Below, in pieces: positions 50,707-64,000 of a DNA stretch of 64,000 nucleotides. The first letter of the stretch is position 1. Every line of letters begins with the position of its first letter. The stretch lies in contig NZ_JOMH01000001.1 in the NCBI RefSeq assembly GCF_000711245.1, positions 3,466,830 through 3,530,829 of the forward strand. The letters are read 5' to 3'. This stretch comes from Polycyclovorans algicola TG408 (GTDB lineage Bacteria > Pseudomonadota > Gammaproteobacteria > Nevskiales > Nevskiaceae). The notes beneath the pieces are model-generated. The model saw only the letters and a list, made by a program, of their open reading frames with translations. It was not told the origin of the DNA and did not search any database. Made by a program: the position numbers and the translations under genes.

Positions 50707-52194
50707 TCAGGCGTAAACGCGACGGCGAGCCGCCATAATCAATTCTGAAGCGTCAGCCTCGTCCATCTCGACGCTTTCCAGCAGCTCATCGGTGGCCAGA
50801 TCGGCGAGATCGGTCGCGGTGTGAATACCCGCCTCGTTCAGCACCTCGGCGACCTGGGCATCAACGCCCTCTACCGCAAGAAGGTCATCCTTGTCGCTGC
50901 CATCGGCAGCCGATTCAGCGCTGGCGATGGCGCGGGTCAGCAGCACGTCCTGTGCTCGATTCTTCAGCTCGGTGACGATCTGGTCGTCAAATTCTTCGAT
51001 GCCCAGCATCTCTTCGTCGGCGACGTAGGCCACTTCTTCGAGCGTGGTGAAGCCTTCCTGGACCAGGATCAGCGCCACCTCGGCGTCAACGTCCAGGTCC
51101 GCCATGAAGGTCTGCTGGATCGCCTGGTTTTCGGTTTCCTTGCGCGCCTCGGCATCGGCAGCGGTCATCACGTTCAGCGTCCAACCGGTCAGCTCCGAGG
51201 CCAGGCGCACGTTTTGACCCCCGCGGCCGATGGCCTGCGCGAGCTTTTCTTCGGACACGCCGATGGTCATCGCGTGGGCGTCTTCATCAACCACGATGGT
51301 TTCGACCTCGGCCGGCGCCATGGCGTTGATCACGAATTGGGCGGTGTTTTCATCCCACAACACGATATCGACCCGCTCACCGGCAAGCTCATTGGAGACC
51401 GCCTGCACGCGCGAGCCGCGCATGCCCACGCACGCCCCGACCGGGTCGATGCGCTTGTCCTTGGCCTGCACCGCAATCTTGGCGCGCAAGCCAGGATCGC
51501 GCGCGGCGCCCTTGAGCTCGATCAGGCCCTGGGCAATCTCCGGCACTTCGAGCTTGAACAGCTCCATCAGCAGGCGCGGGTCGGTGCGTGAAACAAAAAT
51601 CTGCGGCCCGCGAATCTGCGCGCCAACGTCGTAAATAAAGCCGCGGACGCGGTCACCGGGGCGCAGCGGTTCGCGCTGAATCTGCTGATCGCGCGGAATC
51701 ACCGCCTCGACGTTGTTACCCAGGTCCATGATGATGGCGCCGCGTTCCATGCGCTTGACGATACCCGTCAACAGCTCGCCAACGCGGCTGGTGTAGGCCG
51801 CCACCACCATCGCCCGCTCGGCTTCGCGAATCTTCTGGATGATGACCTGCTTGGCCTTCTGCGCACCGATGCGGCCAAAGTCCACCGAGTCCACCGGGGT
51901 CTCGATGGCCTCAAGCGGCTGAATCTCGGGGTGATCCTTCTGCGCGTAAGTCAGCTTGATTTGCCGCTCGGGAAATTCAAACTCTTCGGAATCGTCCTCA
52001 AGCACCGTCCAACGCCGAAAACTCAGGTACTCGCCGGTTTCGCGGTCAATCTGCACGCGAATATCGGCCTCGTCGCCGTGGTGCTCCTTGGTGGCCGATG
52101 CCAGCGCTGCCTCCAGCGCCTTGAAGATGATTTCATGCTCAACGCCTTTCTCATTGGAAAGCACGTCAACCATCAGCAGAATGTTTTTATTCAT
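50707..52194 (-). CDS. nusA: Transcription termination/antitermination factor NusA
   Basis: NusA binds RNA polymerase and modulates pausing, termination and antitermination. The 495 residues hold an N-terminal polymerase-binding domain, an S1 domain (about 135-200), two KH domains (about 230-345, with the [16 protein letters not shown] and [14 protein letters not shown] loops) and two acidic C-terminal repeats (about 365-420 and 440-495). The two acidic repeats are the gammaproteobacterial form. The start overlaps the rimP stop by 4 nt. Confidence 0.98.
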
Positions 52195-52661
52195 GATTTG
52201 GCCATTTCACGGTCAAAATCGGGCACCAGACGGGCCCGCTCGATATCTTCGTACGCCACCTGCAGCCGCATTTCGGGGAGCGACACCTCAATTCCACTGG
52301 CATCAGCGGCCACCAGCACGCCCGAAAAGCGGCGCCGGTTGTCGCGCGCAACGTGCAACTGCAACTTGATCGTCTCACCCACAAACCGCTGAAAATGTGC
52401 CGGCTTCACCAGCGGACGGTCCATCCCGGGAGACGACACTTCCAACTGGTACGCCGTGCTGATGGGGTCTTCAACATCCAACAGCGCCGCTGCTTCACGA
52501 CTGACCCGCTCGCAGTCGCCCAGCGTGATCCCACCCGGCGAATCAATGAACAGCCGCAGCATGGCGCTGTGAGAACCGGCCGCAAATTCGATCAACACCA
52601 ACTCGTAACCGAGCGATTCGATCAAAGGCTCCAGCAGATTGGTAAGTTTTTGATTCAGCAC
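52191..52661 (-). CDS. rimP: Ribosome maturation factor RimP
   Basis: RimP is needed for 30S maturation. The product is 156 residues from a GTG at 52661 (reading LNQKLTNLLEPLIESLGYEL), close to the usual length of about 150. Diagnostic segments are FIDSPGGITLGDCERVSREAAALLD, YQLEVSSPGMDRPL and the C-terminal SH3-like part (FSGVLVAADASGIEVSLPE). The GTG fits the family N-terminus better than the upstream in-frame start at 52694, which lies in the tRNA terminator region. No strong ribosome-binding site is seen. Confidence 0.94.
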   Translation of the reverse strand: MLNQKLTNLLEPLIESLGYELVLIEFAAGSHSAMLRLFIDSPGGITLGDCERVSREAAALLDVEDPISTAYQLEVSSPGMDRPLVKPAHFQRFVGETIKLQLHVARDNRRRFSGVLVAADASGIEVSLPEMRLQVAYEDIERARLVPDFDREMAKS

Positions 52662-52696
52662 AATAAATCTGGTTAAACCCCTGCAGCACCGCAATA

Positions 52697-52719
52697 AAAA
52701 AGGCCCTCAGAGGGGCCTC
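52697..52719 (-). terminator. Hairpin between tRNA-fMet and rimP
   Basis: On the minus strand, AGGCCC/GGGCCT with a short loop is followed by a run of T. It sits 16-38 nt downstream of the tRNA 3' end and can end the tRNA transcript or allow partial read-through into rimP-nusA, as described for metY-nusA in E. coli. Confidence 0.8.
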
Positions 52720-52734
52720 GTTTTTGCCTCAAAT

Positions 52735-52811
<77 letters not shown>

Positions 52812-52848
52812 CCAGACCTTCAAAATGCCTCCGAGGCCATCCTCGAAG

Positions 52849-52884
52849 GCCGCGTATTGTATGGAGGCGGCGGCGCTTCCGCAA
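52849..52884 (-). promoter_or_regulatory. Probable promoter of tRNA-fMet and the rimP operon
   Basis: On the minus strand TACAAT (52856-52861) is preceded at 17 nt by TTGCGG (52879-52884). The start would be near 52849, 38 nt before the tRNA. It implies that the core DNA extends at least to about 52890 and that the island junction lies beyond. Confidence 0.55.
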
Positions 52885-53016
52885 GGGCGTGACCACAAAT
52901 ATATGAAGAACCGAAGATTTCTTCGTAGCGGTCACCACCGAGAACCTTGGAAGCAGGGTCCAAGGCGAGTTCGCTGCCGCTCTTCAGCCAGCGACATCGT
53001 CATGTCGCCAAATCCC

Positions 53017-53060
53017 TTTGTGCCCAATTTGTGCCCACATTGCGCCCACCCTGTGCCCAC
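53017..53060. repeat. Four tandem 11-nt repeats (TTTGTGCCCAC type)
   Basis: The units are TTTGTGCCCAA, TTTGTGCCCAC, ATTGCGCCCAC and CCTGTGCCCAC, joined without spacers, with a period of about one DNA helical turn. They lie at the integration end of the island, next to the regulator and recombination genes. They may be arm-type binding sites for integrase or excisionase, or an accident of the codons of a degraded integrase tail. Confidence 0.7.
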
Positions 53061-53093
53061 GAGTCGAAGCAGTGAGAGAAGAATGACCGTCGG

Positions 53094-53333
53094 TCACTTC
53101 TCCTCGTTTGTGCCATTCGGGACGTACTGAACAAGCTCCTGAATTTCGCAGCTGAAGAACGCACAGAGACGGTCAAGATTGTCCGTACCCGTGTTGTAGC
53201 CCCGCTCGTTCGCGATCTTGGACAAAGTCGCCCGATGAATACCCGTGCCCGCTGAAACCTCAGACAGGGTGATCACACGCCCGTCCTGGTATTCCTTGTT
53301 GGCCAACAGCTCCTTGAGCCTGAATCTGATCAT
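53094..53333 (-). CDS. Cro/CI-family HTH regulator
   Basis: This 79-residue DNA-binding protein has a helix-turn-helix at residues 22-42 (TLSEVSAGTGIHRATLSKIA), then a helix DNLDRLCAFFSCEIQELVQY typical of the HTH_26/XRE group. I start at the ATG at 53333; an in-frame ATG at 53345 is also possible. It is divergent from the excisionase-like gene, with repeated CATATGTCGTT sites and a long inverted repeat between them. That is the usual layout for a regulator of excision. The direction of regulation is inferred. Confidence 0.85.
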   Translation of the reverse strand: MIRFRLKELLANKEYQDGRVITLSEVSAGTGIHRATLSKIANERGYNTGTDNLDRLCAFFSCEIQELVQYVPNGTNEEK

Positions 53334-53342
53334 CACAATCCA

Positions 53343-53376
53343 CATATGTCGTTTTAACTTGTCATATGTCGTTGAC
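53343..53376. promoter_or_regulatory. Direct repeats upstream of the HTH gene (probable operators)
   Basis: CATATGTCGTT occurs twice (53343-53353 and 53363-53373), 20 nt apart and on the same face of the helix. They lie just upstream of the HTH gene start and of the -35 box for the divergent gene. They are good candidate binding sites for the regulator at 53094-53333. Confidence 0.65.
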
Positions 53377-53400
53377 ACACGACTCTTGGTGTGGTCTATT
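53372..53400 (+). promoter_or_regulatory. Promoter of the excisionase-integrase genes
   Basis: TTGACA (53372-53377) is followed at 17 nt by TCTATT (53395-53400), giving a start near 53407 inside the perfect inverted repeat. The -10 match is moderate. Confidence 0.6.
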
Positions 53401-53436
53401 AGTGTCATGCGTCGTGTTTGCACGACGCATGACACT
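53401..53436. promoter_or_regulatory. Perfect 16-bp inverted repeat (operator or leader hairpin)
   Basis: AGTGTCATGCGTCGTG and its exact complement are separated by TTTG. The repeat covers the predicted transcription start and leader of the excisionase-integrase operon, 24 nt before the ATG. It could be a repressor operator at DNA level or a strong hairpin in the leader RNA. Confidence 0.85.
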
Positions 53437-53460
53437 CACACTCAGCACCAGGAGATTAGC

Positions 53461-53700
53461 ATGCAGCAGACTTATCTAACTACGGAACAACTGGCAGGCC
53501 GCATCCACTACGACGCCCGAACGATCAGGGAGCGCCTTAAAGACTCAGTCCTACTCGAAGGACAGCATTACATCCGGCCCTTCGGTGGCCGGAAGCTTCT
53601 TTACATCTGGGAAGCCATTGAGCGCGACATGGTCAAGATGGCTGGCCAAGCTGATGTCAGCCGAATTCCGATGGCGAATGGAGCGGTCTGCCATGGGTAG
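53461..53700 (+). CDS. Excisionase-like HTH protein
   Basis: This 79-residue protein begins MQQTYLTTEQLAGRIHYDARTI, a winged-helix pattern (residues 6-40) like AlpA/Xis or MerR-type DNA-binding proteins, with GGRKLLYIWEAIERD as the wing and recognition part. A strong ribosome-binding site (CAGGAG) lies 6 nt before the ATG at 53461. Its stop overlaps the integrase start by 8 nt, so the two are probably translated together. It is likely the recombination directionality factor, but that is inferred from size and position. Confidence 0.75.
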   Translation: MQQTYLTTEQLAGRIHYDARTIRERLKDSVLLEGQHYIRPFGGRKLLYIWEAIERDMVKMAGQADVSRIPMANGAVCHG

Positions 53701-55000
53701 CATAAGGAAGCGGGGCGACAAGCTATTCATCGACTTCAGATATGAAGGGCATCGATGCCGGGAGCAGACCTTACTCCCCGACACCAAACCCAATCGCAAG
53801 CTGCTTCAACAGTTGCTCACCCGCGTCGAATCCGAAATCTCCCTCGGCACCTTCAACTATCTGGCCACCTTCCCAGGCAGCAAGACGGGCATCAAGCTCT
53901 CACAGCGCCGGGAGAGCGCTGACGTTGGCGAGACGTCCAGCTCTGCTGCGTTGGTGACGTCCGGCGGGGGCAGGCAGGGAGCTGGTGTTGCTGCCGTCGG
54001 TGATGCGGCAGCGGCCACCCCGCTGTTCCGTGACTTTGCTGAGCTGTGGGTGCAGGAGTGTGGTCTGGGTTGGCGGGATTCGCATCGGGCGACGGTGCGG
54101 TCGACTCTGGATCGTCATCTGATTCCGGCCTTTGGGGAAGTGCCGGTGGGCTTCATCAGCAAGGCCGACGTTCTGCAGTTCAGAACAGCACTGGCGAAAC
54201 GTTCCGGACGCAGCGGAAATGCAACCCTGTCGGCGAAGACGATCAATAGGGTGATCCAGGTGTTGGGTCAGATTCTGGATGAGGCGGTGGATCGCTTTGA
54301 TTTCGTCAATCCGGTGAAGAAGGTGAAGCGCCTGCGGCAGTCGCGGGTGGAGATTCATCCCTTTTCAATGGAAGAGGTGCAGTTGCTGATCCACACGGTG
54401 CGGCCGGACTACCGAAACTATCTGGTGGTGCGCTTCTTTACGGGCATGCGAACCGGTGAGTTGCATGGGCTGCACTGGTCACGAGTGGACTTCGAGCGAC
54501 GGCAGATTCTGGTTCGGGAGTCCTGGGTGCGGGGTCGGCTGGATGAGACCAAGACCGATGGCTCGATGCGGGACATTGCAATGAGTCAGCCGGTGTTTGA
54601 TGCCCTGATGGCGCAGCGGGAGGTGACCTACCAGCCCGGCGGGGACACGTTCGTGTTCGCCAACCGCAATGGTGAGCCCCTTGATGTGGACAACATCACC
54701 AACCGGGTCTGGTATCCCCTACTCCGACATTTGGGTCTGACGAAGCGGCGTCCGTATCAAACGCGGCATACCTTTGCGACCTTGTTGCTGGCAGCCGGTG
54801 AGAACCCTGAGTTCGTGGCTCGGCAACTCGGTCATGCGAACACGATGATGCTGTTCAAGACCTACAGCCGGTATGTGCCGAACCTGACCCGGCGAGATGG
54901 ATCAGCGTTTGATCGTCTGGTCACGGGGGCGATGGTGCCGGCCAATGGTCCGGAGCTGGAGTCTGGCGCCATGAATCAGGGGGTGTCCGATGCGGCGTAA
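53693..55000 (+). CDS. Tyrosine recombinase / phage integrase
   Basis: This 435-residue site-specific recombinase probably integrates and excises this island. The N-terminal arm-binding part (MGSIRKRGDKLFIDFRYEG) is followed by an Ala/Gly/Ser-rich insertion (residues 72-108), the core-binding domain (about 110-205) and the catalytic domain. The catalytic residues are R253 (TGMRTGELHGLHW), the RH pair at 358-359 (YQTRHTFATLLL), H381 (QLGHAN) and probably Y391 (KTYSRYVPN). The usual first His of the HxxR box is Tyr here. It appears intact. Confidence 0.95.
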   Translation: MGSIRKRGDKLFIDFRYEGHRCREQTLLPDTKPNRKLLQQLLTRVESEISLGTFNYLATFPGSKTGIKLSQRRESADVGETSSSAALVTSGGGRQGAGVAAVGDAAAATPLFRDFAELWVQECGLGWRDSHRATVRSTLDRHLIPAFGEVPVGFISKADVLQFRTALAKRSGRSGNATLSAKTINRVIQVLGQILDEAVDRFDFVNPVKKVKRLRQSRVEIHPFSMEEVQLLIHTVRPDYRNYLVVRFFTGMRTGELHGLHWSRVDFERRQILVRESWVRGRLDETKTDGSMRDIAMSQPVFDALMAQREVTYQPGGDTFVFANRNGEPLDVDNITNRVWYPLLRHLGLTKRRPYQTRHTFATLLLAAGENPEFVARQLGHANTMMLFKTYSRYVPNLTRRDGSAFDRLVTGAMVPANGPELESGAMNQGVSDAA

Positions 55001-55388
55001 TCGATCAGGGGGTGCCGCGAGGACGGCAATCGGCAACACAGGCGGTGTTGCTGAACAGTCGGCGCCAGTCACTTCAGCGACGAACATTCTGGAGCAGGTT
55101 GAATCCGAACTGGCTGCGGTTGCGCTTCGTCGTCGTGCTGCGCGCCTGACAGAGTCCTTGCTACCGCTCTTGACGGTGTCGAAAGAAGGCAAGGAGCTGT
55201 TGATCTGGATACGGGAGACAGCCGCTCGCGATAACTGCAGTGCACTCAGGCTGTGGGTGGCGGGGGAGTTGTTGGATCCCATGTTCGAGGTGGCCTGCGG
55301 CAGTGGGAGTGAGGTGACGGAGTTGTTGGGGCGTCTGGAGCGGCACTGTCTGTGGCAGGAAGCTGCGAATGACGAGCGCTGGGAATAG
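54990..55388 (+). CDS. Hypothetical protein downstream of integrase
   Basis: The 132-residue product is not recognised. It has a flexible N-terminus (GGAARTAIGNTGGVAEQ), a central helical stretch (VESELAAVALRRRAARLTESLLPLL), and helical segments with KEGKELLIWIRETAARD and VTELLGRLERHCLWQEA. It starts within the end of the integrase gene (11-nt overlap) and overlaps the next gene by 20 nt. That tight packing suggests it is real and co-translated. The repeated Leu/Glu/Arg pattern fits an all-helical small protein. Confidence 0.6.
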   Translation: MRRNRSGGAARTAIGNTGGVAEQSAPVTSATNILEQVESELAAVALRRRAARLTESLLPLLTVSKEGKELLIWIRETAARDNCSALRLWVAGELLDPMFEVACGSGSEVTELLGRLERHCLWQEAANDERWE

Positions 55389-56337
55389 CGCCATGCGCCT
55401 TGGGATACGGGCGGTCGAGGATGCTGCGCTTGAGGACTGTAAGGGTCTGGTCAGCGAGCGGTATCTGCTGACGGAGGTGCATCACTGCGTGAAGCAAGAT
55501 GGGGAGCGGTATCTGCGTTTGGTACTGGACCATGCCGGTGGGACGGTGATCGGCCTGCTGTGGTCGGAGCGGGTGCATCTGGCCGCGGGGCTGAGCCTGA
55601 TGGCGCCAGTTCAGGTCAGTGGCCGGGTGTTCACGAATGGTGGTGATCGGGCACTGAGTGTGGAGACGCTGTCAGCCGTTCCGATATCGGGGATTGAGGG
55701 GGGTGTGGCGCTGTTGCCTCGCCGGTTTTGTCCAGAGGTGGCGCAGGGGGCATTCGAGGCATTACAGAACTGGGCAGGCGCCCTGCCCTATGCGTTGCAG
55801 TGGTTCGTGGGCCGGGTCCTGCTGGATCCAAAGGTGAGTGTGGCCTTTTTGCGATGCAAGGCGGCTGCGCACTATCACCATGCCTACCGGGGCGGCCTGC
55901 TGGTGCACAGCACGGAGTTGATGGATCTGGCGGGGGTAATGGCACAGCGGTTGATGCCGGATGAGCCGCTGGCGGTCCCCCTCACGCAGATAGCGTTGCT
56001 GTTTCACGATCTGGGCAAAGTCGTGACAGTGGGAGAGGGTTCGGGCGGTCGACCGATTCGCGAGCCTGCGTTCGCTGATCAGTCCCACGAGCAGATCACG
56101 TGGCAGTTGCTAGCGCTGCACCTTGATGAGCTTGAGCCGTTGATGCCAGAGGCAGTAGCCGTTCTGCGATCAGCGTTCCGGCACATGGCCGAGCGCCGGA
56201 CGGGGGTGTTTGCTCAGACGCTCGTGGCGGATATCGCGAGGATGGTGGATCAGTTGTCGACGGCGATGGAGAGGGGGGTGGGGTTCGAGATGAAGTCCAG
56301 CCCCGAAATATCTTTTCTGTGCGAGAAATCGAACTAG
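55369..56337 (+). CDS. HD-domain protein with N-terminal OB-like region (YhaM/TraI_2-like)
   Basis: This 322-residue protein has a beta-rich N-terminal part (TVIGLLWSERVHLAAG... VSGRVFTNGGDRALSV) reminiscent of an OB fold, then an HD domain: HHAYRGGLLVHSTELMDLAG (His), ALLFHDLGKVVTVGEG (His-Asp), and a later His in RSAFRHMAERRTG. This arrangement is like the 3'-5' exoribonuclease YhaM and the relaxase-associated TraI_2 helicase/HD proteins. A role in nucleic-acid processing is inferred from the fold. I start at the ATG at 55369, which has an AGGA motif 8 nt upstream. Confidence 0.7.
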   Translation: MTSAGNSAMRLGIRAVEDAALEDCKGLVSERYLLTEVHHCVKQDGERYLRLVLDHAGGTVIGLLWSERVHLAAGLSLMAPVQVSGRVFTNGGDRALSVETLSAVPISGIEGGVALLPRRFCPEVAQGAFEALQNWAGALPYALQWFVGRVLLDPKVSVAFLRCKAAAHYHHAYRGGLLVHSTELMDLAGVMAQRLMPDEPLAVPLTQIALLFHDLGKVVTVGEGSGGRPIREPAFADQSHEQITWQLLALHLDELEPLMPEAVAVLRSAFRHMAERRTGVFAQTLVADIARMVDQLSTAMERGVGFEMKSSPEISFLCEKSN

Positions 56338-56602
56338 GCATAGCGGCTCTTCGATTCGTTCAGTTCGCGACTTCAAACAGCTTAAACCGTTCCGCTAGAC
56401 GGTCCCGGTCGGGCAGGTTGGAGTTCCGGAGCTTCTGTTGACATCCAGCCGCTAGGGCATTGGCACCGAGCGCCAATTGTACCGGGGGAAGCCCACTAGA
56501 AAGATCACCTTGTTGTACGAGCAGTGATTCAGCGAAAAGGGGCGACTGAGTGGCACCGTACTGACCTCAACGTGCCGACAATAACTGCATGGTGTATACT
56601 TA
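56338..56602. other. Gap before the DNA-modification operon
   Basis: These 265 nt have no convincing gene. The right end carries TATACT at 56595-56600, which could be the -10 box for the downstream operon, with a weak TGCCGA -35 at 56573-56578. The composition is more AT-rich than the flanks. Confidence 0.45.
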
Positions 56603-57553
56603 ATGAAGGTCGAAAATACTGCTGATATAGGTCTTTACGTCGTGAATTTTACTGCCGCAGTTGTCACAAGTTGCACTCAGCGGAAAGCTAGCAGCAATCG
56701 CGTGGACATCGGGCAACTTCCAGAGAGCGCGTCACTTTTTGGTTTGGCGCAGGACTGGCGCCGCGCTGTTGGCGAGGCCAGCGCCAACAGCGCCGCTCGA
56801 AACCTCTACCAAGGGCGATCGATTGCGGACTCGGCAGCAGTCGCAGCGACCTTGGGGGCTTCCTTGTATGTGGTGTCGGCCGGCTTAGGGCTTATCCAAG
56901 CCAGCCAACTCGTGCCAGCTTATGACTGCACAGTCGCGGCAGGCACGAATCTCGATCGCCGGTTGAGAGCCTTGGGAAGCAACCCTGCACAGTGGTGGAG
57001 CGCGTTGACTGGTGTTTCATCAAATCCTCTTTCCAGGTTGATAGGAAAAGGCCCGACACTGCTGGCGCTGCCCGGCAGTTATCTGCAATTGGTACATGAT
57101 GATCTGGCGCTGGTTACGGCTGCACAAGCCACATCCCTGCGGATCTTCACGTCTACCGCAGGTGCCAAGTATTTGCCGAATCATCTTCTGAACTATGTGA
57201 TGCCCTATGACGGAAGACTAGAGTCGGTTCCCGGCCATGCAGGAACGCAAGCTGACTTTGCTCAGCGCGCCTTGCGGCATTTCGTCGAAGTACTAGAAGC
57301 GACAGACAGGTCAGCAAAAGAAGCTCAGGCAGCGGTGGCTGAAAGCTTGGCAGATCATCACGGGAGACAGCGATCACTTGGTCGACGAATGACTGATGAC
57401 GAGATTCTGCAAGTATTAAGCGCGCAGTGGACTCGGCACTCGGGCAGCAGCACGAAATTGCTGCGCTATCTGCGACAAGAAGCAGGAATCTCCTGCGAAC
57501 AAAGAAGATTCAGCCGACTTTGGCGCGGCCTGGCCACAAAGATGCGGAAATGA
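56603..57553 (+). CDS. DUF6884/YaaA-like protein, possible base-processing enzyme of the modification operon
   Basis: The 316-residue product has a SCTQRK motif (residues 23-28) after a hydrophobic strand, LYQGRSIADSAAVAAT, then YVVSAGLGLIQASQLVPAYD (89-108). This set matches the CxxRK / SAxxGL / PYD pattern of DUF6884 and YaaA-like proteins. In known dpd systems an extra enzyme converts DNA-bound preQ0 to the amido form, and this gene is a candidate by position only. If the -10 box at 56595-56600 is used, translation may instead start at the GTG at 56642, just before SCTQRK. Its stop overlaps the next ATG. Confidence 0.65.
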   Translation: MKVENTADIGLYVVNFTAAVVTSCTQRKASSNRVDIGQLPESASLFGLAQDWRRAVGEASANSAARNLYQGRSIADSAAVAATLGASLYVVSAGLGLIQASQLVPAYDCTVAAGTNLDRRLRALGSNPAQWWSALTGVSSNPLSRLIGKGPTLLALPGSYLQLVHDDLALVTAAQATSLRIFTSTAGAKYLPNHLLNYVMPYDGRLESVPGHAGTQADFAQRALRHFVEVLEATDRSAKEAQAAVAESLADHHGRQRSLGRRMTDDEILQVLSAQWTRHSGSSTKLLRYLRQEAGISCEQRRFSRLWRGLATKMRK

Positions 57554-58707
57554 TGATGAAAAAAGCCAACAACGCAGTCACCGATCGAAAAGAGTTGGTC
57601 GTTCGCGCACTGCACACCACTCAGGGAGAGGGATTGGACGTTTACGCGTTCTTCATTAAGGGCAGCGACATACTCAATGTGGCAGATATTTCGCGGATAG
57701 AACGTGACGCGACTAATGACCTTAAGGGATTTCAGCGACCGGAAATCCGCCAGCATGTTAAGGGCATCGTGGACTACCTAAATCAGGGCGACGTACTCTT
57801 CCCCAACGCAATTATTCTGGCACTGGCACCGGACATCAAATTTGTTGCTTCCCGAGGTAGCAAGCCGGCAGGCGATGCGAGGATATCGGAGAGTGGCACC
57901 TTGACCATGCCGATCTATGCAGAGGGCCGGCGCGCAGCCTGGATCGTCGACGGGCAGCAGCGGTCAATTGCTCTGTCACAGGCGCAACACAAGGAATTGG
58001 CAGTGCCCGTGATCGGCTTCGTGTCTGAGAGGCTCTCGGTGCAGCGCGAGCAGTTCATCTTGGTTAACAAGGCCAAGCCCCTGCCAACCGGCTTGATCAA
58101 TGAATTGTTGCCTGAAACGGCGTCCTTCGTTCTGCCGCGAGATCTGGCGGCTCGAAAAATACCTGCCGAGCTCGTGAGCACATTGAACCAAGATCCTGCC
58201 TCGCCGTTCTTCCGGTTGATCAAGCGCGCGTCGGATGGGGGGTCGTCCGAGGCGGTCGTAACCGATACAGCTTTGCTGTCTTTAATTAGGAGCAGCCTGT
58301 CAAATCCCCTGGGAGCCCTAGCGCAGTTCAAGTCTGTCGGACAGGAGGGTGGCGGTGATGTAGCCGGGATGTATCGCATCCTGACGACATACTGGTCGGC
58401 GGTGAAGGCAGCGTTTCCCGATGCTTGGGGCAAGAACCCGAAGCAGAGTCGACTGATGCATAGCGCTGGCTTGATGGCCATGGGTTTGCTGATGGATGCG
58501 ATCTATGCGCGACTCCCCCCCCACTCGGAGGTAGCCGCCCTAAAACTCGAGCTCGAGAAGGTCGCGCCGTCGTGCCGTTGGACCAAGGGAACCTGGGAGA
58601 CGTTAGGCCTTGCTTGGAACGAAGTGCAGAACACCCCGCCACACGTAAAAAAACTACAAGACACGTTAGTGCGTGCCTACGCCGCCAGCAAGAACTTCTC
58701 GAACTAG
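57550..58707 (+). CDS. DGQHR-domain protein, first paralogue (DpdB/DndB-like)
   Basis: This 385-residue protein has the DGQHR-domain layout: LKGFQRPEIRQHV (58-70), PNAIILALAP (85-94), and the signature VDGQQRSIALSQ (133-144) in place of DGQHR, then FILVNKAKPLP and a long helical C-terminal part. Proteins with this domain (DndB in phosphorothioation, DpdB in deazaguanine insertion) bind DNA and nucleotides. It overlaps the previous stop (ATGA) and its stop is 1 nt before the DpdA start. It is clearly related to the protein at 60001-61080. Confidence 0.82.
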   Translation: MMMKKANNAVTDRKELVVRALHTTQGEGLDVYAFFIKGSDILNVADISRIERDATNDLKGFQRPEIRQHVKGIVDYLNQGDVLFPNAIILALAPDIKFVASRGSKPAGDARISESGTLTMPIYAEGRRAAWIVDGQQRSIALSQAQHKELAVPVIGFVSERLSVQREQFILVNKAKPLPTGLINELLPETASFVLPRDLAARKIPAELVSTLNQDPASPFFRLIKRASDGGSSEAVVTDTALLSLIRSSLSNPLGALAQFKSVGQEGGGDVAGMYRILTTYWSAVKAAFPDAWGKNPKQSRLMHSAGLMAMGLLMDAIYARLPPHSEVAALKLELEKVAPSCRWTKGTWETLGLAWNEVQNTPPHVKKLQDTLVRAYAASKNFSN

Positions 58708-58708
58708 C

Positions 58709-60004
58709 ATGAAGTTTTTGTACTCGGATACGCAGGACTATGTCGACCCAGGGTACGACTTTCTGAACGACCGCTGCCGTCCTGGCAGAGAGCGCTATTG
58801 GTCCGACGTCTATGCCCACGAGTTCATGGACCCAGCACCTTATGACGGGTTGCTGGTTTCGATGAGTGCCGTACGGCAGGCCGCAGGTGTGGCCACTTCC
58901 AAGGTTCGCTACTCCACAAGGGAGGAGCAGCGCTTGTTGCGAGATGGCGCTCGGCAGTTCTTGCGCTATGGTGGGCCGAGGTTCAAGGACACAATGCTAC
59001 TGGGGGACTGCGGCGCCTTTGCCTACGTGGAACATCCGGTCCCAGCCTACGCTCCGGAGGAGGTGGTGGAGTTCTATACCGAAGCCGGGTTTACCCATGG
59101 CATCTCCCCGGACCACATCATCTTTGCCTGCGACCTGACCAACCCTTCGGAGCAAGCGGTCGACGCCGCGACACGGCAGCGGTTCGCCATTACCCTGGCC
59201 AATGCTGAGGTATTCCTGGGACTTGTAAAGCGCGAGGGAATGCCGTTCGAGCCGCTCGGACCCGTGCAGGGGTGGTCACCCAAGAGCATGGCCGAGGCAG
59301 CACATCGACTCGAGCGGATGGGCTACCGATATCTGGCCATCGGGGGATTAGTTCCCTTGAAGGTCGACGCCATCAAGGCCGTCTTGACAGCAATCCGAGA
59401 GCGAATTCGTCCAGAGACAGAGATTCATCTGCTTGGCTTTGCAAAAGCCGACAGCATTCACGAGTTCACGGGCTTTGGGATTACAAGTTTCGATTCGACG
59501 TCGCCGCTGATCCGTGCATTCAAAGATGAGAAGGCGAACTACTACAGGGAAGGCTCAGACGGTCGACTGGAGTACTACACCGCTATCCGCATTCCTCAGG
59601 CCACGGAGAACGCACGCCTGATGCAAGGCATTAAGCGGGGTCAGTTCAGCGCAGAAGACCTGTTGCTACGAGAACGGCGGGCATTGATTGAGGTACGGGC
59701 ATATGACCGTGGGGCTTCGTCGGCAGAGGCAACGCTAGACGCGGTTATGGACTATCACCAGTTCCTGCTGCGCGGCGACGGAACGGGTGCCGCGCAGCAG
59801 GACAAAGCGCTGCGCAAGACCGCTGCGCTCGTGCAGCGCACGCTGAAACACCAGCCGTGGAAAGAGTGCGACTGTGCGGTATGCCGCGACATCGGTGTTG
59901 AAGTGATCATCTTCCGCTCGAGCAACCGCAATAAACGACGGGGAATGCACAATCTTAGCGTCTACCACCGTCACTTAAGCAAAACCATTCAGGGGACCGC
60001 GTGA
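58709..60004 (+). CDS. dpdA: DpdA-type 7-deazaguanine DNA transglycosylase (TGT-like)
   Basis: This 431-residue TIM-barrel protein is related to queuine tRNA-ribosyltransferase. It begins MKFLYSDTQDYVDPGYDFL, typical of DpdA and not of tRNA TGT. Visible sites are GDCGAF (99-104, base-pocket Asp), PVQGWSPKSM (185-194), IGGLVPLKVD (211-220), FDSTSP (261-266, candidate nucleophile D262) and a zinc site CDCAVC (387-392) with a His in 414-422. The family exchanges guanine in DNA for preQ0. It sits between two DGQHR genes, as expected for the DpdA-DpdB pair. I start at the ATG at 58709. Confidence 0.87.
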   Translation: MKFLYSDTQDYVDPGYDFLNDRCRPGRERYWSDVYAHEFMDPAPYDGLLVSMSAVRQAAGVATSKVRYSTREEQRLLRDGARQFLRYGGPRFKDTMLLGDCGAFAYVEHPVPAYAPEEVVEFYTEAGFTHGISPDHIIFACDLTNPSEQAVDAATRQRFAITLANAEVFLGLVKREGMPFEPLGPVQGWSPKSMAEAAHRLERMGYRYLAIGGLVPLKVDAIKAVLTAIRERIRPETEIHLLGFAKADSIHEFTGFGITSFDSTSPLIRAFKDEKANYYREGSDGRLEYYTAIRIPQATENARLMQGIKRGQFSAEDLLLRERRALIEVRAYDRGASSAEATLDAVMDYHQFLLRGDGTGAAQQDKALRKTAALVQRTLKHQPWKECDCAVCRDIGVEVIIFRSSNRNKRRGMHNLSVYHRHLSKTIQGTA

Positions 60005-61080
60005 CCACATACCGATTCACAGCAGTCCGGGCACAGCAGGCTCCAGGTCACGATGTCTTTGTATTTGCCGCCCACCCTGCCGATGTGCTGTCATTCGCCG
60101 CAATCGAGCGTGTGGCACGAACCGATGATGGGCAACTCAAGGGCTTCCAGCGGCATCAGGTTGCCTCTCACATCCGAGACATCCGCGACTACCTGACGCG
60201 AGAGGATGCCCTGCTCCCCAATGCAGTGATTATTGCCTTTATTGAAGGCGTGACGGTCAAAGACCTGTCCGACGGACTGGTTCAAGTCCAGATCGATGTC
60301 ACTCAAGATAGCCGCCCCGGTTTTGTAGTCGACGGACAGCAGAGGCTAACCGCTCTTTCGGGAATCAATAAGCCTGAATTCCAAGTATTCGTGTCGGCAG
60401 TGATCTGCAAGGACTACAACGAACTACGTCAGCAGTTCGTCTTGATCAACAACACGCGTCCTCTGCCGAAAACTCTAATCTACGAATTGCTTCCCAATGT
60501 TGAAGGCTTGCCCGAGCGATTCACTCAGCGCAAGTTCTCGGCCCGCATCGTCGACATGCTCAACTTTACGCGTGGAAGTTCTCTACACGGCGAGGTACGG
60601 CAGCACACTAATCCGACGGGCATGATCAGCGACACCGCGATGCAGCGACTGATCATGAACTCGGCCTCTGACGGTGCGATTCGCAGCCTGATGCGGTTCG
60701 ACGACCGCGAGGAGCGGGCGTTTCAGTTGGTTAGCGAGTTCTTCCATGCCGTGGCCAGGGTCTACGGCTCGGCCTGGTATGGCATGGCACCTCGCTTCTC
60801 GCGACTACGGCACGGCGCCGGAATCGTGGCCATGGGCTTCGTCATGGACCACCTGCATAGCCTTGAAGGGGCGAAAGAGCGGGGCCAGTTCGAACCTGGC
60901 TTGCGACTGCTGGCACCGCATACAGCCTGGACCAGTGGCCAGTGGCCCCTAGAGGCATGGGATACGCGCCCGTGGAATGGCATCCAGAACACACCGAGCG
61001 ACATCGATCTGCTGACGCGCTACCTCGTTAGCTCTCTCAAGAAGGCGCTGCGGAAGCCGCGTCGCATCGCCAATGGATAA
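60001..61080 (+). CDS. DGQHR-domain protein, second paralogue (DpdB-like)
   Basis: This 359-residue protein shares most landmarks with the protein at 57550-58707: [13 protein letters not shown] (47-59), [11 protein letters not shown] (73-83), [12 protein letters not shown] (110-121), [20 protein letters not shown] (146-165) and a [10 protein letters not shown] segment near the end. It starts with GTG at 60001, overlapping the DpdA stop (GTGA), and its stop overlaps the queC start by 8 nt. It is probably the functional DpdB partner of DpdA; which of the two paralogues is essential cannot be told. Confidence 0.85.
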
Positions 61081-61789
61081 CATCATGGAACGCAAAGCGC
61101 TGGTGCTGTTTTCCGGAGGTCAGGACTCGGCTACCTGCCTGGCCTGGGCGCTGGATCGATACTCTTACGTAGAGACGGTCGGTTTTGACTATGGGCAGCG
61201 CCATGCGGTGGAACTCGATTGCCGCAAGGTGATGCTGGAGCGGCTAAAGGCGGAGTTCCCGGCCTGGGGGCCGCGTTTGGGCGCCGACCACATGCTTGAC
61301 CTCGCACCGCTAGGTCAGGTCAGCGATACAGCCCTAACTCATGAACGCGAGATTGAATTCTCATCTTGCGGTCTACCAACAACCTTCGTTCCTGGGCGCA
61401 ACATGCTGTTCTTCACGTTCGCTGCCGCCGTGGCCTACAGGCGTGGTCTGTCGGTGCTGGTGGGCGGGATGTGCGAGACCGACTACTCCGGCTATCCGGA
61501 CTGCCGTGACAACACGCTCAAGGCACTGCAGGTGGCGATCAGCCTGGGGCTCGAAGCCCCGATGGTCGTAGAGACGCCGCTAATGTGGCTGGACAAGGCT
61601 CACACTTGGCGCATGGCGAAGGATCTGGGCGGTGCTGCGCTTGTGGAATTGATCCGCACGGAAACGCACACCTGCTACCTTGGCGACCACACAACCCAGA
61701 ACGCCTGGGGCTATGGCTGTGGGCAGTGCCCTGCCTGCGACCTGCGGCGCAAGGGCTACGAAATCTTCAACGCCGCGGAGGCCGCATGA
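61073..61789 (+). CDS. queC: 7-cyano-7-deazaguanine synthase QueC
   Basis: QueC converts 7-carboxy-7-deazaguanine to preQ0 with ATP and ammonia. The 238-residue protein has the PP-loop SGGQDS (14-19), the [13 protein letters not shown] block (38-50), [33 protein letters not shown] (134-146) and the four zinc Cys (C201, C216, C219, C222). The start at 61073 could instead be the ATG at 61085 ([12 protein letters not shown]), the better match to QueC. Within the island it supplies preQ0 for DNA modification. Confidence 0.97.
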
Positions 61790-62895
61790 GCACCACCCCT
61801 CTTTCGCTGTCGGTGCTGCATGCCGCCAGCTGCCGGTTCGAGGCCGCTCGGCAGGTCGACATGCTGCCGGCCGGGCATCGATGCCGCAACCTGCACGGTC
61901 ATGGGTTTACGGCCACAGCATATGCCCGCGTGCCGGCGGACTGGGTGACCTACCCCGGTGGTGAGGTGGCGGCCCTGCAGCGACAGGTCGATCGCTGCGC
62001 CGATCTGCTTAACTACGGGGTGCTCAACGACAAACTGGCCCAACCGACCGACGAGAACCTGGCGCGGTGGATTCGTGGCCGGTTGGATGCCCCGGGCATT
62101 GATCGAGTGTCCGTGCAAAGCACCCCTAATCAGGGCGTCGAGGTCGACGCCCGCGATCATGCGCATGTGTGGCGGCGCTACCGGTTCCAGGCGGCCCATC
62201 GCCTGCCGCATGTGCCACTGGGCCACAAGTGCGGACGCCTGCATGGTCATGGCTTCGAAGTCATCGTCCATGCCGACCAGGATCTGGCGGGAGCCGACCT
62301 GAGCATCGACTATGACCATCTGGACGACCTGTGGGAGCCGATCGCGGCGCAGGTCAACTATCGCTGCCTGAACGAGATCCCGGGCCTTTCCAATCCCACC
62401 AGCGAGATGATCTCGTCATGGTTGTGGGAGCGCTTGAAACCTGAACTGCCCGCGATGTCTTGGGTGACGGTCTACGAGACGGCCTCGTGCGGCGCGACCT
62501 ACGACGGTGCCAACTACCGGATCTGGAAGGACTTCACCCTCGACAGCGCGGTGCAACTCCGCCACGCACCGGCCAACGATCCGCGGCATCGGATCCACGG
62601 GCATACCTACACTTTGCGGCTTCACCTCGGGGCGCCGCTGGACCAAATCATGGGATGGACGCTGGACTTTGGAGACGTGAAAGCGGTATTCGATCCAATC
62701 TTCAAGTCTCTGGATCACCACCCACTGCATGAACAAGCGGAATTGGCCGACGGCGACACGACGACGATTGCGCGCTGGTTGAATGAGCGCACCCGTCGCG
62801 AACTGCCCCAATTGATCCGGGTCGACCTGTTCGAATCCGAAGGCTGTGGCTCGCTGGTGGGCTTGGACTTGGCGGGACCCGCCTTGCCGGTGTAG
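61786..62895 (+). CDS. Triple-module QueD-like protein (6-carboxytetrahydropterin synthase fold)
   Basis: QueD makes 6-carboxytetrahydropterin on the way to preQ0. This 369-residue chain holds three QueD-like modules of 110-120 residues. Module 1 (about 10-120) has [12 protein letters not shown] with Cys33 but lacks the first zinc His and the Asp-His pair. Module 2 (about 131-245) has [20 protein letters not shown] with all three His, Cys149 and Glu231, but NY replaces the Asp-His dyad (191-192). Module 3 (about 248-362) lacks the Cys (R267) and first His but keeps DHH (310-312) and Glu350. A normal QueD is one module of about 120 residues. The start overlaps the queC stop by 4 nt. Confidence 0.88.
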
Positions 62896-62898
62896 GAC

Positions 62899-63540
62899 AT
62901 GACGTACTCGGTCAAGGAGATCTTCTACACGCTGCAGGGCGAAGGTCTGCAGATGGGCATGCCGGCAGTGTTCTGCCGCTTTGCGGGCTGCAACCTGTGG
63001 ACGGGGCGCGAGGCGGATCGGGCGTCAGCGGTCTGCCGCTTCTGCGACACGGACTTCGTGGGGACCGATGGGACTCTGGGCGGCAAGTTCCAGACGGCCG
63101 AACGCTTGGCCGATAAGATCGCGGCGCTTTGGCCTGAGGACGACAGGCGGCATCGGCTGGTCGTGGCAACCGGCGGCGAACCGCTGCTGCAGGTCGACCC
63201 TGCACTGATCGATGCGCTGCATGCACGGGAGTTTCGGATTGCGATTGAGACGAATGGAACGATTGCGGCACCCGGAGGGATTGACTGGCTGTGCGTCAGT
63301 CCCAAGGCGGGAGCCGAGTGGGTGCAGCGACGGGGACATGAACTCAAACTGGTATTCCCGCAGCCGCGATTGATGCCTGACGCACTGCCCTGGTCGGAAC
63401 TTCAATTCGAACATCTCCTGCTGCAACCGATGGATGGCCTAGAAGCTACACGCAACACGGCGGCAGCAGTGGCCTACTGTCAGGCGCACCCCCAGTGGAG
63501 ACTATCGTTGCAGACACACAAGATGCTGGGAATCCGCTAG
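62899..63540 (+). CDS. queE: 7-carboxy-7-deazaguanine synthase QueE
   Basis: QueE is a radical SAM enzyme that contracts 6-carboxytetrahydropterin to 7-carboxy-7-deazaguanine. The 213-residue protein starts MTYSVKEIFYTLQGEG and has the QueE-type cluster motif C31-x14-C46-x2-C49 (the last Cys pair in CRFCD), VVATGGEPLLQ, IAIETNGT and VSPKAG. Three nt after the QueD fusion, with an AGGA motif before the ATG, it is last in the operon. queC-queD-queE together give the whole route from the pterin stage to preQ0, provided 7,8-dihydroneopterin triphosphate is supplied by a FolE elsewhere. Confidence 0.96.
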   Translation: MTYSVKEIFYTLQGEGLQMGMPAVFCRFAGCNLWTGREADRASAVCRFCDTDFVGTDGTLGGKFQTAERLADKIAALWPEDDRRHRLVVATGGEPLLQVDPALIDALHAREFRIAIETNGTIAAPGGIDWLCVSPKAGAEWVQRRGHELKLVFPQPRLMPDALPWSELQFEHLLLQPMDGLEATRNTAAAVAYCQAHPQWRLSLQTHKMLGIR

Positions 63541-63665
63541 AAAGGTTCGGCACCTAGGGGGGTGCTCGGTACTACTGCTGTCAGCGCTGACGATTCGCGT
63601 GGTTGAGTCCGCCATGATGATCGAGTCGTAACCGCAGCACTTCGCCGCCCCGCGCAGATTGTGTT
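63541..63665. other. Convergent intergenic region after queE
   Basis: No gene is seen in these 125 nt. A short stem, GGCACC/GGTGCT at about 63548-63566, could act as a weak terminator between the convergent genes, but it has no T-run. Confidence 0.4.
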
Positions 63666-64000
63666 TCATGGCGCCATACCATCGGTGGCCCACTTTTCTG
63701 CAGCGCTGATGATGCTGACGGCACCGGTACCTTGGACGTACACCAATCGATCTCGACAATCATCAAACGCCCGGTAGACGGCGTGAGAACTCGCCGCCCA
63801 CACGAAGAGGATTAGATCTGCTTCGGAGGCCCTGCGGGTTTGCCCGCCCTGCACCGTGCCATTCACAAGGACGACCTCGGCGCCGGTCCGGGCTATCAGT
63901 TCTGCTGCGGCCTCGCGGGCGCCGGTTTCCTGCAGCGACACGATGGCAATTCGCTTCAAGCCGGCTTGTGCCAGGGTGTCGATCGTCTCATCCGATTCGA
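63666..64000 (-). CDS. DUF2325-like protein (C-terminal part, N-terminus outside window)
   Basis: The frame is open from the window edge. A TTG at 63959 is one possible start, but the open frame continues upstream (reading SDETIDTLAQAGL), so the gene probably extends beyond base 64000. The C-terminal 97 residues read KRIAIVSLQETGAREAAAELI, VVLVNGTVQ, ADLILFVWAASSHAVYRAFDD and YVQGTGAVSIISAAEKW. This alternating pattern with SHAVYRAF resembles DUF2325 proteins, a small Rossmann-like family of unclear function. It converges on queE and may be another island gene. Confidence 0.6.
   Translation of the reverse strand, partial: ESDETIDTLAQAGLKRIAIVSLQETGAREAAAELIARTGAEVVLVNGTVQGGQTRRASEADLILFVWAASSHAVYRAFDDCRDRLVYVQGTGAVSIISAAEKWATDGMAP

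Follow-up and report, generated by a model that had tools for sequence, protein, structure and literature searches.

The 64,000-nucleotide (nt) stretch of Polycyclovorans algicola TG408 analysed here (contig NZ_JOMH01000001.1, positions 3,466,830 to 3,530,829 of the forward strand; hereafter the window) carries near its right-hand end seven intact, nearly seamless plus-strand open reading frames (56603-63540), namely dpdC, dpdB1, dpdA, dpdB2, queC, queD and queE, which very probably make up the modification half of a complete Dpd restriction-modification system, a known type of bacterial defence in which guanine of the cell's own DNA is replaced by a modified base. A spacer of 125 nt (63541-63665), the proposed cassette junction, lies between this operon and a convergent restriction operon. 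The 3' part of dpdD reaches into the window on the minus strand (63666-64000, with its frame at 63666-63998; NCBIfam DpdD E = 8.2e-11 for the part in the window), and the next 17 kb past the window (locus L003) hold dpdD, K, J, I, H, G, F and E, all on the minus strand. The gene cluster is one more complete Dpd island, and its core with two DpdBs is the rule among the relatives compared. Such islands, composed of a synthesis and a restriction operon and fully intact in more than half of the cases, have already been published, as have additional copies of dpdB, the gene with the most of them (801; available part of PMC11888242). The interest lies in the comparison of relatives, which brings out two old, paired DpdB lineages, a QueD with a divided active site and, as the most interesting part, an apparent independent assortment of the two halves. 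Beyond that count of dpdB copies, no report of Dpd cassette exchange, of paired DpdB function or of a triple QueD turned up in the titles and abstract openings of the open-licence papers that the literature searches listed, and the term 'dpd' does not occur in the available part of PMC13329287.

The whole dpdD gene scored E = 9.4e-39 with NCBIfam and 263.5 bits with PADLOC. Three proteins of the restriction half passed their NCBIfam cut-offs (DpdJ with 1020.2 bits against 800, DpdK with 104.4 against 100, and DpdG with 81.2 against 80). The YprA-type helicase represented by DpdJ is shared with BRIGADE, DISARM and Druantia, which have other partner genes according to the available text of PMC12458937, while the DpdJ linked to the window is recognised as such by its own model. 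What weighs against a complete restriction half is that DpdF (548.1 bits, cut-off 550), DpdE (411, cut-off 500), DpdH (263, cut-off 450) and DpdD (133.8, cut-off 300) fell short of their NCBIfam cut-offs, and that DpdI gave a weak NCBIfam match (E = 0.006) and no PADLOC DpdI match and was placed by position. For DpdD, DpdE, DpdF and DpdH, PADLOC matches back the NCBIfam matches below the cut-off, and PADLOC also recognised DpdG, DpdJ and DpdK. In content (dpdA, dpdB and dpdC together with dpdD to dpdK) the cluster agrees with the islands of the Salmonella enterica serovar Montevideo type, and it shares its convergent arrangement with the island of an Enterobacter plasmid (L045). The latter differs in having one DpdB where two flank DpdA in the window, and no queC, queD or queE is annotated in its 25-kb stretch, whereas they are part of the modification operon here. 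Islands of Comamonas testosteroni and other Burkholderiales (e.g. L049, L053, L054 and L067) have the same dpdC-B1-A-B2 core, but their restriction half is far less alike, and their loci show a triple QueD, a single one or none.

Proteins of the modification operon were assigned with Pfam, NCBIfam and PADLOC models. What is observed directly is which genes are present, how they are ordered, that their frames are intact, to which families they belong and which residues are conserved. The first gene, dpdC (56603-57553), matched the PADLOC DpdC model with 285.6 bits (E = 1.3e-85) and is proposed to carry out the step from 2'-deoxy-7-cyano-7-deazaguanosine (dPreQ0) to 2'-deoxy-7-amido-7-deazaguanosine (dADG). 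Its score with Pfam DUF6884 was 27.5 bits, slightly below the cut-off of 30; DUF6884 is the DpdC domain in the available part of PMC11888242, while the corresponding part of PMC12839542 calls DpdC DUF328, unlike the former source and the Pfam match here. The gene that had been described as DUF6884/YaaA-like is DpdC by its PADLOC match. Its true start is probably GTG 56642, giving 303 amino acids (aa), because the reading frame has this length in L050-L053 and nucleotide similarity to L049 begins at 56638. The two DGQHR-family paralogues, both with the motif DGQQR, stand upstream (dpdB1, 57550-58707; 448.7 bits) and downstream (dpdB2, 60001-61080; 377 bits; NF041060, cut-off 300) of the DNA-guanine transglycosylase gene dpdA (58709-60004; NF041059, cut-off 200). 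They are followed by queC for the preQ0 synthase (61073-61789; PF06508, 218.9 bits, cut-off 22, E = 6.9e-65), queD (61786-62895), whose three Pfam PTPS stretches show its product to be a single chain of three PTPS/QueD domains that divide the active-site residues, and queE for the 7-carboxy-7-deazaguanine synthase (62899-63540; TIGR04508, 342.6 bits, cut-off 240).

The DNA and the table of reading frames show that neighbouring genes overlap by 1-8 nt or are separated by 1-3 nt. The dpdC stop (57551-57553) overlaps the dpdB1 ATG (57550 or 57553), dpdB1 stops at 58707 ahead of the dpdA ATG at 58709, dpdA stops at 60004 past the dpdB2 GTG at 60001, dpdB2 stops at 61080 past the queC ATG at 61073, queC stops at 61789 past the queD ATG at 61786, and queD stops at 62895 ahead of the queE ATG at 62899. 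The original prediction of seven tightly joined genes in one direction thus holds, with the correction that one overlap measures 8 nt, and so does that of a DpdA/DpdB transglycosylase unit with its own QueC, QueD and QueE, since family models matched all of them. Between 56340 and 63800, promoter-like and terminator-like sites were no commoner than in shuffled sequences (1 vs 2.7 and 6 vs 5.6).

The chemistry, the restriction and the need for both DpdBs in Polycyclovorans are proposed by analogy with the known family. No folE lies in the island operon and the single FolE match of the genome lies elsewhere, as do a second queC, a second PTPS gene and a tRNA-type tgt, so that the que set of the island is an additional one. 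The 7-cyano-7-deazaguanine (preQ0) destined for DNA is probably made by the QueD, QueE and QueC of the island fed by the FolE of the host, following the pathway as it is summarised in the available part of PMC11888242. The earlier idea that the unit makes and inserts its own modified base is therefore right for QueC, QueD and QueE and for DpdA and DpdB, but not for FolE, which is encoded by the host outside the unit. DpdA, aided by the DGQHR ATPases DpdB1 and DpdB2, would then swap guanine in DNA for preQ0, DpdC would turn this preQ0 into the amide dADG, and the products of the convergent dpdD-K-J-I-H-G-F-E operon, among them helicases and a PLD-type protein, would attack DNA without the mark. 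The prediction of dADG follows from the presence of DpdC and from the requirement of dpdC for dADG in S. Montevideo reported in the available part of PMC11888242. The same part of that source lists C. testosteroni, at the species level, among those whose islands modify DNA with dPreQ0 and dADG, and the island of C. testosteroni ATCC 11996 (L067) has the dpdC-B1-A-B2 core as in the window.

Six plasmid loci and one locus from genome G323 served as the starting set for comparing relatives. DpdB stood on both sides of dpdA in five of these seven, while the Enterobacter plasmid had one DpdB and Acetobacter none. Species genomes were then scanned with an alignment of eight DpdAs (those of the starting loci and the window), the best 80 of 300 stretches were kept, and the position of DpdB relative to dpdA was judged by gene midpoints. 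In 78 of the 80 loci dpdA was flanked by DpdBs, the upstream one being closest to DpdB1 of the window and the downstream one to DpdB2; 77 of them have one intact DpdB1 and the remaining one (L071) a split DpdB1. The motif DGQQR was kept in all 83 DpdB1 rows (the window included and the split DpdB1 left out) and in all 87 downstream rows (the window included, and three of them single DpdBs). A tree, rooted by midpoint only, was built from 76 of the 177 DpdB sequences collected. All 33 DpdB1 rows fell on one side of a branch with a support of 100/99, and the other side held the 33 DpdB2 rows, seven additional DpdBs from Pseudomonas and two single DpdBs. The single Enterobacter DpdB formed a long branch between the two sides. 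With the midpoint root, this separation suggests that the split into DpdB1 and DpdB2 predates the spread of the islands compared, and I infer that two non-equivalent ATPases serve one DpdA.

In the S. Montevideo system, which has been studied biochemically, DpdB is present once, which weighs against this view and makes a reaction with two DpdBs a proposal for the present island. The system could be complete with one DpdB redundant or merely regulatory, DpdA and a single DpdB doing the whole reaction, as is the case in gene content for the Enterobacter plasmid and for the two genome loci (L097 and L107) that have a downstream DpdB only. This is the strongest of the alternatives and still an unlikely one, given the flanking of dpdA by DpdB in nearly all loci and the unbroken conservation of DGQQR on both sides; that DpdB1 and DpdB2 are separate lineages argues for two functions that have been kept. 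Why two anciently separate DpdBs are kept on either side of DpdA is a testable point. Seven Pseudomonas loci (L076-L081 and L083) carry a third dpdB on the other strand, these extra DpdBs forming one clade, and in five of them (L076-L080) a single QueD lies near it.

The modification and restriction operons appear to have parted company among the relatives. A Rubrivivax locus (L049) is 86% identical in DNA to the window over 56638-63540, which is almost exactly the modification operon, and the similarity ends at 63540, while its DpdJ is 33% identical to that next to the window over 782 aa. A Rhizobium metagenome-assembled genome (L072) shows the reverse pattern, with 66% identity over 57635-63314 against 73% over 63688-68205, and its DpdK and DpdD are 87% and 75% identical to those of the present island. 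The window and 86 loci gave 87 rows, and Mantel tests were run on the 28 with a DpdJ of at least 900 aa and a DpdK of at least 150 aa; the Rhizobium locus, the nearest relative in the restriction half, stayed outside this set because its DpdJ is cut to 675 aa by the contig end. Loci were found by DpdA and restriction proteins by probes from the present island, so the comparison misses very divergent restriction halves. Within the modification half, DpdA similarity tracked that of DpdB1 (0.87, n = 27), DpdB2 (0.93) and QueC (0.77, n = 24), and within the restriction half DpdJ tracked DpdK (r = 0.83). Between the halves there was no such relation, neither for DpdA and DpdJ (r = -0.18, one-sided p = 0.97) nor for DpdA and DpdK (-0.06, p = 0.65). 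Nearest neighbours told the same, agreeing in 14 of 28 rows for DpdA and DpdB2, 17 of 27 for DpdA and DpdB1 and 17 of 28 for DpdJ and DpdK, but in only 3 of 28 for DpdA and DpdJ and 1 of 28 for DpdA and DpdK. The correlation of DpdA with DpdJ or DpdK stayed non-positive without the Enterobacter row (n = 27), after removal of four near-duplicates as well (n = 23), and in a 20-row clade around the window.

Larger but less complete sets gave a mixed result. DpdA showed little relation to DpdJ (0.10, p = 0.15, n = 33) and DpdK (0.01, p = 0.38, n = 36), but weak positive correlations between DpdB2 and DpdJ (0.27, p = 0.008, n = 33), QueC and DpdJ (0.20, p = 0.048, n = 28), and DpdA and DpdF (0.16, p = 0.02, n = 23) speak against a full separation of the halves. 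In the complete set without the Enterobacter row, the values were -0.10 for DpdB2 and DpdJ (n = 27) and -0.13 for QueC and DpdJ (n = 24), and in the 20-row clade they were 0.09 (p = 0.22) and 0.13 (p = 0.12), respectively. DpdD could be compared in 5-7 rows only (0.30 with DpdA, p = 0.09, n = 7). As similarity covaries within the halves and not between DpdA and DpdJ or DpdK, the data suggest, as a second-level reading of the relatives, that the modification and restriction operons are inherited as separate cassettes that meet at the convergent junction and are seemingly exchanged as such. The missing correlation might instead come from saturation or wrong homologue calls, since many DpdJ pairs are merely 25-35% identical and some DpdJ frames are incomplete because they run off the retrieved stretch. 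This is improbable in view of the strong covariation of DpdJ with DpdK in the very same loci, of the matches of all 27 comparison proteins each to the NCBIfam DpdK and DpdJ models, and of unambiguous single cases: L076 and L079 share 97.7% identity in DpdA and 33% in DpdJ, L053 and L095 share 49% and 79%, and L081 and L083 share 80% and 96%.

A further step from separately inherited cassettes, which I offer tentatively and with rather less than even confidence, is that the two (dpdC-B1-A-B2-que and dpdD-K), joined where the convergent operons meet, are freely interchangeable. What the restriction half senses would in that case be the modified base as such, or the lack of it along a long stretch, and not a recognition motif shared with its own DpdA. 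If this is true, Dpd would differ from classical restriction-modification systems, in which modification and restriction have to agree in the sequence they recognise. How halves that apparently assort independently keep the host safe is likewise a testable point, with direct consequences for what counts as self in Dpd.

Two readings that deny the operon a restriction partner or DNA as its substrate fare far worse. The original prediction had seen no restriction or helicase genes in the window and had weighed a stand-alone modification system against restriction genes beyond base 64000. The window indeed holds no complete restriction gene, and some dpd islands are without a restriction operon according to the available part of PMC11888242, but the end of dpdD within the window already contradicts the first observation, with its opposite-strand gene ending just past the spacer behind queE. 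Once the genome was read past the window, the gene content of the next 17 kb refuted the stand-alone unit, which was rejected as highly improbable, and bore out the second option, dpdD to dpdK being found there (dpdI weakly).

DpdA scored 534.8 bits on the DpdA model against 14-29 bits on three models of tRNA-guanine transglycosylases (TGTs), and, in a further likeness to the Montevideo type, its alignment with the solved structure of DpdA from S. Montevideo (PDB 7ui4, E = 2.9e-89) runs from residue 8 to 439 of a 443-aa frame and so covers nearly its full length, compared with E = 0.0026 for an archaeal tRNA TGT (PDB 1iq8). A grouping of DpdA with tRNA TGTs, which had been considered as the contrary outcome, is thus opposed by model scores and not by a tree. 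D100 (in GDCGAF), D262 (in FDST) and the zinc site CxCxxC...H (C387, C389, C392 and H414), which I take from TGT enzymology to be the catalytic aspartates and zinc ligands, were invariant in all eight DpdAs. A queuosine- or archaeosine-like operon with DpdA acting on tRNA, which draws on the TGT fold of DpdA and its score above the Pfam TGT cut-off (31.8 bits, cut-off 26.3), is hardly credible and was rejected on the model scores; the host moreover carries its own tgt, and dpdA sits with DpdB, DpdC and DpdD-K.

The gene initially called QueD-like does belong to the QueD family, and what had gone unremarked is that it is a fusion of three domains. PTPS matches at dpd loci comprised 20 proteins of more than 350 aa with three domains, the window included, and 42 of less than 300 aa, and their residues were placed by alignment with the solved E. 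coli QueD. In domain 1 of all 20 long proteins, the place of the first zinc His is taken by Arg, that of the relay His by Tyr and that of the Glu by Ser. Domain 2 is the only one with a complete zinc-His/Cys set (H138, C149, H153 and H155) together with the Glu, and domain 3 has the Asp-His pair (D310 and H311) and the Glu but lacks the Cys and the first zinc His, again in 20 of 20. Two details disturb so clean a split: 13 of the 20, among them the QueD of the window (C33), carry a Cys at the corresponding place of domain 1, and one protein (L096) retains the Asp-His pair in domain 2. An AlphaFold2 model of the fused chain reached a predicted local distance difference test score (pLDDT) of 91.4 and a predicted template modelling score (pTM) of 0.89. 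Two of its domains jointly overlay tandem tunnelling-fold uricases (Z ~11, root-mean-square deviation 4.4, ~215 residues), and domain 2 alone overlays E. coli QueD (PDB 4ntk/4ntm; Z ~16, 117-119 residues, 41-43% identity). Unlike this and other PTPS/QueD homohexamers, the QueD of the window has its three domains fused and the conserved residues divided between domains 2 and 3. In the available part of PMC7546909, each PTPS site sits between three adjacent monomers, and a 1995 paper with an intersubunit catalytic triad in its title is cited. My reading is that one QueD chain would mimic a trimer with one predicted working site, composed of the Cys and zinc of domain 2 and the Asp-His pair of domain 3. 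How a triple QueD with its catalytic residues split between domains works can be tested.

The triple QueD was also considered as an invention of dpd islands. This was rejected, as a match of three-domain length occurred in 19 of 369 sampled genomes while DpdA exceeded its cut-off in two, both among the 19. Five such loci (L159-L163) from the 18 other genomes were examined, one of which (L159) comes from the DpdA-bearing genome G323, yet has no dpd gene in its 4-kb locus. All five have the Cys and zinc His in domain 2 and the Asp-His pair in domain 3, and domain 1 lacks a Cys at the corresponding place in all of them; the Asp-His pair also occurs in domain 2 in three of them and the domain 3 Glu is absent in two, making the partition looser than in the dpd set. 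Plasmids gave no triple QueD match at E 1e-40, and phage records gave one single-domain match at E 1e-20. Among the 42 short QueDs at dpd loci (e.g. L044, L058 and L117), 25 carry Ser in place of the catalytic Cys, and Arg where the Glu aligns, while keeping the zinc His and the Asp-His pair, and their sequences possibly represent a second variety of QueD in dpd islands.

The setting of the operon bears several traits of an integrative island, as originally proposed. A tyrosine integrase gene (53585-55000, plus strand; Pfam Phage_integrase E = 1.3e-20 and Arm-DNA-bind_2 E = 1.3e-22) lies near a tRNA-Met(CAT) gene found by ARAGORN (52735-52811, minus strand) beside the left edge of the acquired segment. 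To the right of this tRNA gene, DNA common to the same-genus genome G370 ends at 52887. The occurrence of DpdA is patchy, with 2 of 61 genomes positive (the one studied and G387) and neither of the two other genomes of the genus. That part of the proposal stands, but a search for exact repeats longer than 14 nt shared by 51900-56600 and the 38 kb rightwards from base 63171 gave none, and the right-hand end of the island was sought and not located. Between tRNA gene and operon lie a small Cro/C1-type helix-turn-helix protein and possible regulator (53094-53435, minus strand; Pfam HTH_26 E = 6.9e-11) and, between integrase and dpdC, an HD-domain protein (55369-56337, plus strand; Pfam HD E = 3.3e-4, 21.3 bits, cut-off 22), which has a weak similarity to YhaM and lies outside the stretch common to L049.

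A tRNA-Leu(GAG) gene adjoins tRNA-Met in three of five relatives inspected (G369, G376 and G378, not G370 and G374) but lies ~103 kb away in the present genome (3415937-3416020), indicating that the tRNA region has been rearranged. An insertion site at the 3' end of the tRNA-Leu gene was considered and dropped as unsupported. In both other genomes of the genus, rimP and tRNA-Met are 39-46 kb apart (G370, contig 25, 36449-83414; G369, contig 1, 2548310-2587536), and 16-22 nt of the tRNA-Met 3' end are matched again beside rimP. Because of this gap and the repeated 3' end, tRNA-Met may be an insertion hotspot. To the right of dpdE follow the end of an AddA/UvrD-like helicase with a PD-(D/E)XK nuclease domain (L003:18037-18996) and a 906-aa PD-(D/E)XK protein (L004:2237-4957), which may be host recombination genes or additional genes of the island.

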